NCBI RefSeq assembly: GCF_017876435.1
Contig: NZ_JAGIOA010000001.1
Span: 558,001 to 622,000 of the forward strand
Length of the DNA: 64,000 bases
Direction of reading: 5' to 3'
Source: Microbacterium phyllosphaerae
GTDB taxonomy: Bacteria > Actinomycetota > Actinomycetes > Actinomycetales > Microbacteriaceae
A program made the position numbers and the translations under genes. Positions within the stretch are counted from its first letter, which is position 1; every line of letters begins with the position of its first letter. This document shows positions 13,947 to 37,346 of the stretch, piece after piece. The notes beneath the pieces were generated by a model, which was not told the DNA's origin, searched no databases, and was given only the letters and a program-made list of their open reading frames with translations.

Positions 13947-14711
13947 ATGCCAGAAAATCCCCCTGCCCGGTTCCGCCGATTGCGCGCGCTCGGAGCCGGA
14001 GTCGCACTCACGGCCATGGCCTTCCTCGCGTTCGGCGCGGCGTCCCCCGCCTCCGCGGTCGTCGTCCCCGACTCTTATGACACCGCCGCACTGATGGCTG
14101 CCCCGACTTCGGTGTCCGTCGGGGACACGATCACCGTCACCGCGGTCTTCACCGGCCTCGTCGACGCATATGCGTATGAGCTCGACATCGCCTACGACCC
14201 CGAACTGCTCGCGTTCGTGGCCGACAGCGACATCCTGCCGTCGGGCGGGTTCGGATCGGCGACGGATTCGGGCAGTGAGATCGCGGTCGCCGCAACACGG
14301 CTCGGAACCTCCCCCGGCCTCACCGGGACGCAGACCCTGGTGACTCTCAGCTTCACCGCGCTCGACGCGGGCGACGCCTCGCTCGCGATCGCCTCCGGGC
14401 GCATCGTGGACTCGGCCGCCGAGCCGTTCACGGTCGATGCCGCTGCGGCGAGCACGTCGACGACGGTGGAGATCACCGCCGATGGGGATTCCGAGCCGGG
14501 ACCCGGTGACGGCGGCTCCGACGGCAGCGACCCCGACCCCGACTCGGGCTCCGGGTCCGACTCAGGCTCCGGAACGGGTGCGGGCACGACGACGGACGGC
14601 TCGCTCGCCGTCACCGGTGCGGACGCCGCACCGTGGCTGATCCTCGGCGCCGGAGCCATCGCCGCCATCGCGGCGGGCACCGTCATCGCTGTGCGACGGA
14701 GGACCCGATGA
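13947..14711 (+). CDS. Secreted cohesin-domain-like surface protein with LAXTG sorting signal
   Basis: A 254-residue exported protein. Residues 1-37 are a signal peptide ending ASPASA. Residues about 45-175 resemble a type I cohesin module: VGDTITVTAVFTG, then YELDIAYDPELLAFV, then TLVTLSFTALDAGDASLAI. A Gly/Ser/Asp/Pro linker follows. At 220-224 comes LAVTG, then a hydrophobic helix and RRRTR, an LAXTG sorting signal of the kind class E sortases use. The next gene, 50 bases on, encodes an amidase with a dockerin-like domain, so this protein may be its cell-wall-anchored receptor. The domain call is from motif reading, not a search. Confidence 0.75.
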   Translation: MPENPPARFRRLRALGAGVALTAMAFLAFGAASPASAVVVPDSYDTAALMAAPTSVSVGDTITVTAVFTGLVDAYAYELDIAYDPELLAFVADSDILPSGGFGSATDSGSEIAVAATRLGTSPGLTGTQTLVTLSFTALDAGDASLAIASGRIVDSAAEPFTVDAAAASTSTTVEITADGDSEPGPGDGGSDGSDPDPDSGSGSDSGSGTGAGTTTDGSLAVTGADAAPWLILGAGAIAAIAAGTVIAVRRRTR

Positions 14712-14761
14712 CCGCGCACGACGTCAGAGAAGAGAACCGGAACAACAGGAGAGACACCACC

Positions 14762-16576
14762 GTGAAGAAGACAACCCTGCGGATCGTCGCCGCCGTGTCG
14801 GTCGCGGGTTCCACGATCGTCGCGGCAGGCATGGCGAGCGGAGCCGCGACCGCGGCGCCGGTGCCGGCATCCGTCAGCCTCCCGCCCTACTACAGCGAGC
14901 TCGACGTGACCGGCGACGAGATGGTGACGACCGCGGATCTGTCCGTCGCCGCGGATTCCCTCGGCCTCACGGAGGAATCGCCGGGCTGGTCACGTGTGTC
15001 CGTCCTCGACACGGATGCCGACGGCGAGCTCACGGTCCTCGATCTCGCGGATCTCTCGCGGCGGATCATCTACGACGACGGGCCCCTCGAGCTGGTCGAG
15101 GCGTCGGTGATCGACATGCAGGCGGCGATGAATGCGGGAGTGGTGACCTCGGAGAGCATCACTCAGGAGTACCTCGACAGGATCGCGGCGTATGACCGTA
15201 CCGTCGTGCCCGGCGGAAGTCGTCCGCTCAACTCGATCATCACGGTGAACGAGCAGGCGCTCGCGAGTGCGGCCGCCGCCGACGAGATCCGTGCCTCCCA
15301 GGGCATGACGAGCATGCTCCTGGGCGTGCCGATCGCTCTGAAGGACAACTACGACACGGTTGACATGGTCACCACCGGTGGATGCGCCTGCTGGAACGAG
15401 AATCAGACGGCGACCGACGCTTCGATGGTCACGGGCCTGCGGAGCGATGGCGCCGTGATCCTGGCGAAGGCCAGCCTCGACGAGTTCGCGTATGGATTCG
15501 TCTCCGAGTTCTCGTCGTTCCAGGATCCGGGTGCGACCTCTCTCGTGGCGAGCCCGTACGACACGACGAAGACCGCCGGCGGGTCCAGCGGCGGCACGGG
15601 GGCCGCGATCTCGGCGAACCTCGCCGCGATCGGCTTCGGCACCGACACCGGGGGATCCATCCGCGTCCCGTCGTCGTACAACCAGCTCGTCGGCGTTCGC
15701 CCCACCGTGGGTCTGGCCAGCCGCGACGGCATCATCCCGCTGGCGTTGTCGCAGGACACCGGCGGGCCGATGGCCCGATCGGTCATCGACGCGGCCGTCG
15801 CGCTCGACGCGGTGGTCGGGGTCGACGACGCCGACCCGGTCACCTCGCGACAGCAGGGTCTGGTGCCCGATTCGTACACCTCGTTCCTCGACCCGGATGC
15901 TCTGCAGGGAGCGCGCATCGGCTACGTCACGTCGATGGTCGGCAGCAACGCCGGCACCGTACGACTCTTCTCGGAAGCGACGGCGGCGCTGACCGCCCAG
16001 GGCGCGACGGTGGTGACCGTCACGCCTCCGTCCGGGTTCGCCGCGGTGCTGAACGAGGGCTCCGGATCGACCAACGAGTTCCTCCATGATCTCGACGAGT
16101 ACATCGCCACCCACCTCGGCCCGGAGGTCGAGGCGCGGACCCTGACCGACATCCTCGCGACGAACAGCTTCGTGACCTCACGGCGATCGATCTACGAGGC
16201 GCGGAACGCGGTCACCGATGCGACCTACCAGGCGTGGGCGGGTGAGACCGGTTCGCACACTGTGCAGCTGGCGGCCGGAAAGACGCTCGTGACGCAGATG
16301 ATGGAGGATCTCGATCTCGACGCGATCATCTATCCGAGCACGAACGCGTACGGGACCCAGGGAACGAACATGAGGCTGAGCCCGAACACCGGAATGCCGT
16401 CGGTCACCGTGCCGATGGGGCAGACGGTCGCGGGTGAGACACTGCCGGGCAGCGGTGTGAACCTCGAGTTCCTCGGACGCGACTTCGACGAGGGAACGCT
16501 CCTCGGCCTGGCCTACGCGTTCGAGCAGACGACGGATGCCCGGACGTCGCCGTCGCTCTACGGACCGCTCCCGTGA
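14762..16576 (+). CDS. Secreted amidase-signature enzyme with N-terminal dockerin-like domain
   Basis: A 604-residue exported protein. The GTG at 14762 is preceded by AGGAGA, and the signal peptide ends near residue 32. Residues 48-103 contain two EF-hand-like loops, D48-T50-D52-D59 and D83-D85-D87-E89-D94. The second is followed by LADLSRRI, which is the duplicated calcium-binding pattern of type I dockerins. Residues about 115-600 are an amidase-signature hydrolase with Lys194 (GVPIALKDN), Ser275 (AGGSSGG) and nucleophile Ser299 (GTDTGGSIR). These keep the spacing of the Ser-Ser-Lys triad in known family members. It probably hydrolyses a peptide or other carboxamide outside the cell. A hairpin at 16582-16617 follows. 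Confidence 0.82.
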   Translation: MKKTTLRIVAAVSVAGSTIVAAGMASGAATAAPVPASVSLPPYYSELDVTGDEMVTTADLSVAADSLGLTEESPGWSRVSVLDTDADGELTVLDLADLSRRIIYDDGPLELVEASVIDMQAAMNAGVVTSESITQEYLDRIAAYDRTVVPGGSRPLNSIITVNEQALASAAAADEIRASQGMTSMLLGVPIALKDNYDTVDMVTTGGCACWNENQTATDASMVTGLRSDGAVILAKASLDEFAYGFVSEFSSFQDPGATSLVASPYDTTKTAGGSSGGTGAAISANLAAIGFGTDTGGSIRVPSSYNQLVGVRPTVGLASRDGIIPLALSQDTGGPMARSVIDAAVALDAVVGVDDADPVTSRQQGLVPDSYTSFLDPDALQGARIGYVTSMVGSNAGTVRLFSEATAALTAQGATVVTVTPPSGFAAVLNEGSGSTNEFLHDLDEYIATHLGPEVEARTLTDILATNSFVTSRRSIYEARNAVTDATYQAWAGETGSHTVQLAAGKTLVTQMMEDLDLDAIIYPSTNAYGTQGTNMRLSPNTGMPSVTVPMGQTVAGETLPGSGVNLEFLGRDFDEGTLLGLAYAFEQTTDARTSPSLYGPLP

Positions 16577-36551: not shown

Positions 36552-37346
36552 ATGACTGCATCCGTCGTCTCGGGGGAGCGACGTGCACGGCCCCGTCGCC
36601 CTCGATCTCGCGCCACGTTCACGAGCGTCCTGGGTGAGCTTCTGCTCACCGCCGGCGTGCTCGTGCTGCTCTTCGTCGCCTGGCAGATGTGGATCGGCGA
36701 CATCATCATCAGTGCGCAGAAGAACGACGAGGGCGCGGCGGTGTCGCAGGAATGGGCGAGCGGTCCCACTCCCGAACTGCCGCCGGTCGTCGAGGCGGAC
36801 GACGGCACCACGACGTTCGAACCGGTGATTCCGGCCGCGCCGGCCGACACGGAGCGGCTCGGTCAGATGCACGTGCCGCGCTTCGGCGCCGACTACAACG
36901 TGGGGATCTACGGCGGCACCAGCCGTGCCCGCACGCTCGACAAGCTCGGCATCGGCGTCTACACCGACTCTAAGATGCCGGGTGAGGTGGGAAACTTCGC
37001 CATGGCGGGTCACCGCACCACCTGGGGCAAGCCGTTCAACCAGCTCGACAAGCTGCAGGTCGGCGATGCGATCGTCGTCGAGACGCCCGACGGCTGGTTC
37101 ACCTACCGCTTCCGCACGCTCGAGTACGTGAAGCCCACTCAGACCGAGGTGCTGCTCGACGTGCCGCAGATGCCCGGAGTCGAGACCGGCGAGAAGTACA
37201 TCACGCTCACCGCGTGCTCGCCTCTCTACTCGCTCGCCGAGCGCATCGTCGCCTATGGCATCTTCGAGAGCTTCCAGCCGAGGGCTGAGGGCCCGCCGCC
37301 CGCACTCACCGACCCGCCCCCGCCGCCCGCTGCGCCGTCGATCTAG
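36552..37346 (+). CDS. Class E sortase
   Basis: A 264-residue membrane-anchored transpeptidase that attaches proteins bearing LAXTG-type signals to the cell wall. A basic N-terminus and one membrane helix (about 25-52) precede the catalytic domain with His in MAGHRTTWG, Cys in TLTACSPLY and Arg in SLAERIVAYG. The tail is Pro-rich. The cohesin-like protein at 13947-14711 carries the matching signal. The ATG is preceded by TAAAGT at six bases. Confidence 0.93.
   Translation: MTASVVSGERRARPRRPRSRATFTSVLGELLLTAGVLVLLFVAWQMWIGDIIISAQKNDEGAAVSQEWASGPTPELPPVVEADDGTTTFEPVIPAAPADTERLGQMHVPRFGADYNVGIYGGTSRARTLDKLGIGVYTDSKMPGEVGNFAMAGHRTTWGKPFNQLDKLQVGDAIVVETPDGWFTYRFRTLEYVKPTQTEVLLDVPQMPGVETGEKYITLTACSPLYSLAERIVAYGIFESFQPRAEGPPPALTDPPPPPAAPSI

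Follow-up and report, generated by a model that had tools for sequence, protein, structure and literature searches.

A cohesin with a wall-sorting signal and a dockerin-like amidase as a putative one-to-one docking pair in Microbacterium phyllosphaerae and related actinobacteria

Introduction

Cohesin-dockerin pairs are best known from the polysaccharide-degrading machines of anaerobes, and cohesins outside the cellulosome have been the subject of earlier surveys. The two neighbouring genes described here resemble these machines in their cohesin and dockerin parts and in a predicted wall-attached socket. They differ in that the genome has a single cohesin as opposed to a multi-cohesin scaffoldin, one whole dockerin match as opposed to several dockerin enzymes, and an amidase where cellulosome enzymes are glycosidases.

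One related example has been described in Ruminococcus flavefaciens, where, according to passages of PMC3573020, ScaE is a surface cohesin attached via a sortase-like signal that takes a dockerin-bearing, peptidase-like protein, RflaF_05439 (the binding is given there as unpublished). The present pair would likewise combine a cohesin anchored in the sortase manner with a dockerin-bearing partner. ScaE, as presented in those passages, mainly anchors a multi-enzyme cellulosome and has several clients (ScaB, CttA), whereas the present system has a single cohesin and a single dockerin in each genome, occurs in actinobacteria and carries an amidase-signature enzyme. Another example is found in the non-cellulosomal cohesins of Clostridium perfringens (PDB 2jh2, 2vo8, 2w1n, 2o4e, 2ozn), which are about 18% identical to this one; there the cohesin lies within a secreted glycoside hydrolase (GH33 and GH84 by the PDB titles), while here it forms a separate protein with an anchor signal and the dockerin is on the enzyme.

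A secreted enzyme assembly is also known from a related actinobacterium, Cellulosimicrobium cellulans F16, for whose cellulosome-like complex the authors found no dockerin or cohesin, as stated in part of PMC4562250; in contrast, five other Cellulosimicrobium loci carry the pair (L125, L130, L132, L154, L186), and at two more (L141, L170) the dockerin-amidase gene lies at a contig end. Extracts of PMC3544764 report no cohesin-dockerin for three cellulomonad genomes. Among the papers listed in searches of the openly licensed PubMed Central literature, none was seen to describe such a cohesin and dockerin-amidase pair, and by term count the main text of two overviews (PMC11557425, PMC12484212) has zero mentions of actinobacteria/actinomycetes or of amidase.

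The cohesin-anchor gene

Both genes lie on one strand of the window, meaning the whole 64-kb stretch of DNA that was analysed (64,000 nucleotides). As the sequence-only reading of this DNA had described, the upstream gene encodes a signal peptide, one cohesin module and a LAXTG-type sorting signal, here LAVTG; a linker rich in Asp, Ser and Gly lies between the last two:

13947..14711, plus strand: cohesin-anchor gene, 254 aa; PF00963, 38.5 bits
14082..14486, plus strand: cohesin module, residues 46-180; Pfam core 54-145; fold of the L135 orthologue similar to solved cohesins
14295..14321, plus strand: TRLGTSPGL, invariant and near-invariant columns of the cohesin alignment A1
14604..14618, plus strand: LAVTG sorting motif, read from the sequence, then a hydrophobic stretch and a basic tail

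The PF00963 match covers residues 54-145 of the product and lies above the cut-off of 24.1 bits, rising to 42.2 bits for the excised domain, and by Pfam this is the only cohesin in the 3.73 Mb single-contig genome. Cohesin is matched by 30 of the 31 members of A1 (E up to 1), in which TRLGTSPGL is the best-conserved stretch of this cohesin group. A cohesin fold had been anticipated for residues 45-175; in agreement with this, the predicted structure of the L135 orthologue has a beta-sandwich matching solved cohesins. The predicted function of the module is to bind a dockerin.

The start of the product resembles a signal peptide, which in both genes was called by eye. LAVTG occupies residues 220-224 and is followed in the sequence by a hydrophobic stretch and the tail RRRTR, the arrangement of an LAXTG sorting signal; the NCBIfam sorting models remain under their cut-offs on this protein (NF058582, 19.3 against 27). 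Class E sortases recognise LAXTG, as set out in part of PMC5148588, and the genome has a gene for such an enzyme inside the window:

36552..37346, plus strand: class E sortase, candidate wall-attaching enzyme for the cohesin protein; NF033747, 231.6 bits, cut-off 160

The dockerin-amidase gene

In the product of the second gene a signal peptide precedes a double EF-hand, which is followed by an amidase-signature domain:

14762..16576, plus strand: dockerin-amidase gene, 604 aa if begun at the GTG; the ATG at 14708 is a possible other start
14903..15067, plus strand: dockerin-like double EF-hand, residues 48-102, loops 48-59 and 83-94; under the PF00404 cut-off here
15158..16360, plus strand: amidase-signature domain, residues 133-533; PF01425, 261.7 bits
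15341..15343, plus strand: Lys194 of the Ser-Ser-Lys triad, kept in 72/72 loci of the dockerin-search set
15584..15586, plus strand: Ser275, cis-Ser position, 71/72 loci, one row having a gap
15656..15658, plus strand: Ser299, nucleophile position, 71/72 loci, one row having a gap

From the GTG at 14762 the distance to the stop of the first gene is 50 bases, as the sequence-only reading had given it. An in-frame ATG at 14708 overlaps that stop as ATGA, and either start is possible. Of the 69 loci of the dockerin-search set in which the cohesin comes first in a separate frame, 61 have a start codon overlapping the cohesin stop, an arrangement suggestive of translational coupling between the two genes.

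PF00404 gives the double EF-hand 17.0 bits when the whole protein is searched, 20.9 when the region is excised and 21.2 when the genome is searched, in each case under the cut-off of 22.9. It is therefore called dockerin-like here, a name it owes to its orthologues: in 14 of 31 genomes the model exceeds its threshold at the pair, with no match there in three (G075, G087, G153; E up to 1), and Dockerin_1 is matched by 30 of the 31 members of the dockerin alignment A2 (E up to 10), as opposed to 24 for the next EF-hand model. Of the two profile searches proposed by the sequence-only reading, the cohesin one gave a match over the cut-off in the window and the dockerin one only in orthologues. There are two 12-residue loops of the calcium-binding type. 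In 154 aligned rows (some species present twice; rows covering fewer than about 90 positions left out), positions 1, 3, 5 and 12 are D 95%, T 98%, D 100% and D 100% in loop 1 and D 100%, D 94%, D 94% and D 100% in loop 2, a conservation of 94-100%. The Thr at position 3 of loop 1 is unusual, Asp or Asn being normal there. A model of a fused cohesin and dockerin shows an EF-hand pair, and the predicted function of this region is to bind the cohesin.

The amidase-signature domain is complete, with Lys194, Ser275 and Ser299 all present; their catalytic roles are presumed from those known in the family. The Ser-Ser-Lys amidase and the two EF-hand loops of the original description stand, and its dockerin falls short of the Pfam threshold. 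The PRK08137 equivalog NF006006, the best-scoring NCBIfam amidase model, gives 352.3 against a cut-off of 534. The nearest solved amidase is the peptide amidase Pam of Stenotrophomonas maltophilia (1m21/1m22), matched with 252 bits over residues 108-598, with which the triad residues align. The two enzymes differ in that identity is 28-30% (Foldseek alignments of L135) and in that the present protein adds a dockerin and, by prediction, surface docking.

Linkage of the two genes

The strongest evidence for a partnership is the linkage of the pair across genomes. In a genus sample of 198 genomes, PF00963, which is independent of the profiles built from the pairs, found 23 genomes including that of the window, each with one cohesin and all 23 with the pair. 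A protein search of the same sample matched 52 genomes, of which 30 besides the window, where the match spans the cohesin part, were fetched, adding five close and three distant pairs to the PF00963 set; the remaining 21 matches (at most 37.6 bits) lay mainly in the linker and anchor part, included no PF00963 match and were left out. In all 30 loci an amidase gene follows the cohesin on the same strand, and all 30 have the dockerin region by a profile built from these rows, G153 in two pieces only. A dockerin profile made from the same pairs matched 36 of the 198 genomes, 31 of them at the pairs; the others are G171, a dockerin-amidase near a contig end with a short upstream piece that has no cohesin, G083, an unrelated amidase, G058 and G183, both short and weak, and G138, which is taken up below.

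Beyond the genus, a cohesin-only profile matched 31 of 398 family, 18 of 297 order, 6 of 296 class and 8 of 346 phylum genomes. After the window, repeats and three partial matches (G272 and G557 in the family, G557 giving no locus, and G792 in the order) were dropped, 27 family, 14 order and 4 class loci were new. One locus, L106, runs into a contig edge and was not counted, and at L113 and L210 neither window protein matched. The dockerin-amidase adjoins the cohesin in 26/26 testable family, 14/14 order and 4/4 class loci, which with the 30 genus loci brings the linkage to 74/74 testable genomes besides the window, 9 of them with the amidase first. This recurrence rules out chance similarity and misread open reading frames. 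As the cohesin and dockerin profiles were built from pairs, unlike cohesins could escape these searches. In the phylum search beyond the class, the only matches besides the window were seven short ones (30-32 positions, 18.8-20.7 bits; L228-L234). They all come from one distant family (f62), lie in frames 236-245 codons long and gave no tblastn match to the window cohesin or amidase.

A search with the dockerin region alone found 103 relatives, and the best 80 were retained. These belong to Microbacterium, Curtobacterium, Leifsonia, Herbiconiux, Agreia, Mycetocola, Frigoribacterium, Glaciihabitans, Cellulomonas, Cellulosimicrobium, Isoptericola, Oerskovia, Sanguibacter, Demequina, Georgenia, Oceanitalea, Nocardioides and others. 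Of the 80 loci, 72 have a cohesin, and seven of the other eight are cut by a contig end. The eighth, L128 of Microbacterium sp. MYb45, has the amidase gene between dnaN and recF, with no cohesin gene and with most of the first EF-hand loop missing; similarly, G138 (L226) of the genus sample has a dockerin-amidase gene with neither a cohesin nor any of the first EF-hand, and by eye both amidase genes also lack the signal peptide. From their sequences, L128 and L226 are read as deletions in which the cohesin was lost along with part of the dockerin. In Demequina sediminis (L151) the cohesin frame is broken and the sorting signal lies in another frame, from either a sequencing error or a pseudogene.

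An LxxTG motif with a basic tail ends the cohesin protein in 68 of the 72 cohesin-bearing loci. Across these 72 loci, cohesin and dockerin distances correlate with r 0.62, a value reached in 0 of 999 permutations, and given the catalytic domain the partial r is a weak 0.25. Among the 31 genomes, dockerin matches over the full model occur at the pair only, twice in the one genome with two pairs, and matches elsewhere are weak and span only part of it, with the greatest length in G166 (15-57 of 57, 15.9 bits); this one and that in G031 (13-54, 12.0 bits) cover most of the model.

Fusions and variant forms

In four lineages the parts are joined in one frame, in differing orders: cohesin-dockerin-amidase (L135/G087), cohesin-anchor-dockerin-amidase (G531, L087), dockerin-amidase-cohesin in Nocardioides bruguierae (L178), and dockerin-amidase-cohesin-LAVTG in G768 (L216, L199), a genome that is 69% complete. 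In G136 a second pair of the distant type (L225:3546-6926) stands beside the close type, giving two cohesins and two dockerins. A one-to-one partnership of cohesin and dockerin would explain the fusions, the different gene orders, the second pair and the partial nature of the off-pair matches.

The anchor is absent in Isoptericola (L117/L218), where the protein is short, in Nocardioides bruguierae (L178), in L220-L223 and in the fusion of Microbacterium sp. 2FI. L220-L223, four class-level loci of one family (f45), have the amidase first and long, strongly basic cohesin tails that by eye look Ig-like, with no terminal sorting signal. The distant pairs L081-L083 have an amidase about 42% identical and a larger cohesin-like protein with a hydrophobic, basic tail, the last 60 residues of which hold no LxxTG. 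In L077 (G153) the sorting signal normally found is absent, the cohesin frame reads through into that of the amidase, and part of the dockerin is missing; judged by its sequence, this pair looks degraded as a unit.

A predicted surface-docking device and its alternatives

We consider it probable that the two genes form a dedicated surface-docking device, in which one wall-anchored cohesin retains one dockerin-bearing amidase. In such a device, protein 1 would be exported, the class E sortase of the window would probably link its LAVTG signal to the wall, and a single cohesin would be displayed. Protein 2 would be exported as a free enzyme, its two loops binding calcium to form a dockerin, which would plug into the displayed cohesin and keep one amidase-signature enzyme at the wall. 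Since the closest enzyme of known structure cleaves peptide amides, amide hydrolysis at the cell is the likely task, by which ammonia or acids would be freed from peptide or other amides and the products kept. Counted against docking are the sub-threshold dockerin of the window, the cohesin-dockerin model described below, which shows no confident interface, the anchorless partners, G768, G138, the two off-pair dockerin matches in G166 and G031, and the low partial correlation.

The absence of an anchor in some relatives leaves room for the chief alternative to anchoring, in which the enzyme would have the cohesin as its obligate partner. The cohesin would then be primarily a subunit of the amidase, serving as stabiliser, secretion partner or regulator, possibly calcium-gated, with anchorage secondary in most lineages. 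The pair is retained where there is no anchor (L117/L218, L178, L220-L223, L135) and also in G768, where enzyme, cohesin and LAVTG anchor share one frame and docking for the sake of anchorage is redundant, and L128 and L226, in which the cohesin gene, part of the dockerin and (by eye) the signal peptide are all missing, fit it as well. The sorting signal and basic tail on 68 of the 72 cohesins would, however, be superfluous in a pure subunit, and the unanchored and fused forms are a minority, so that we regard a primarily subunit role as rather unlikely. A related and tentative idea, to which we give slightly more credence, is that the cohesin-dockerin contact is the core of a two-part enzyme, possibly calcium-gated, that can be split, reversed or made as a single chain, with anchoring added or lost around it; if so, cohesin and dockerin would serve holoenzyme assembly or regulated surface release as opposed to scaffolding.

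The EF-hand might also be merely a structural calcium-binding domain, with the cohesin binding a glycan or another cell and the adjacency having some other cause. The window dockerin is, as described above, under the Pfam cut-off, the top solved matches of the A2 profile are calmodulins (among the best 60 of 275 matches), and a fused cohesin-dockerin model gave no confident docking (pTM 0.56); in a model of the full fusion (pTM 0.42) the amidase was poorly modelled. Such a role would nevertheless leave the 74/74 linkage, the two gene orders, the fusions and the joint loss to be accounted for, and the A2 members match Dockerin_1 more often than the next EF-hand model, which makes it very improbable.

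With docking as the preferred reading, the pair appears from its sequences to be a stripped-down, non-cellulose use of cellulosome parts that stays together across many related bacteria. The minimal, non-cellulosomal use proposed by the sequence-only reading is in this respect supported. This would be a recurrent one-socket, one-plug form, found in Microbacteriaceae, Cellulomonas, Cellulosimicrobium, Georgenia, Nocardioides and others and carrying a non-carbohydrate enzyme, and as such a minimal natural system in which to study the purpose of cohesin-dockerin docking where no complex has to be scaffolded. The natural fusions offer a test of intramolecular against intermolecular docking, and the pair may be a new cohesin-dockerin combination for protein display.

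Genomic setting

In the window the pair sits between dnaN and recF, and the products of dnaA, dnaN, recF and gyrB share 98.4-99.8% identity with their counterparts in Microbacterium sp. Leaf320 (L115). The position among replication genes to which the sequence-only reading drew attention is thus real but incidental: a survey of relatives found dnaN and recF flanking the pair in just 6 of the 80 loci of the dockerin-search set, within the fetched flanks, and in 5 of the 28 close pairs that the genus sample contains, the window counted. These counts rule out a replication link. Among genes called by a home-made program, no family of neighbours beyond the pair occurred in more than 10 of the 80 loci, and a larger gene cluster was rejected on this ground.

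Elsewhere in the window genome, a partial dockerin-like match (G000:C1:3504539-3504595; 18.7 bits, 30-48 of 57) lies in a frame of 1954 codons, and partial matches in long frames also occur in G128, G166 and G077. The other sortase of the genome is of class C (L194, G000:C1:1292448) and its gene adjoins one for an LPxTG-type surface protein, possibly as a pilus locus.
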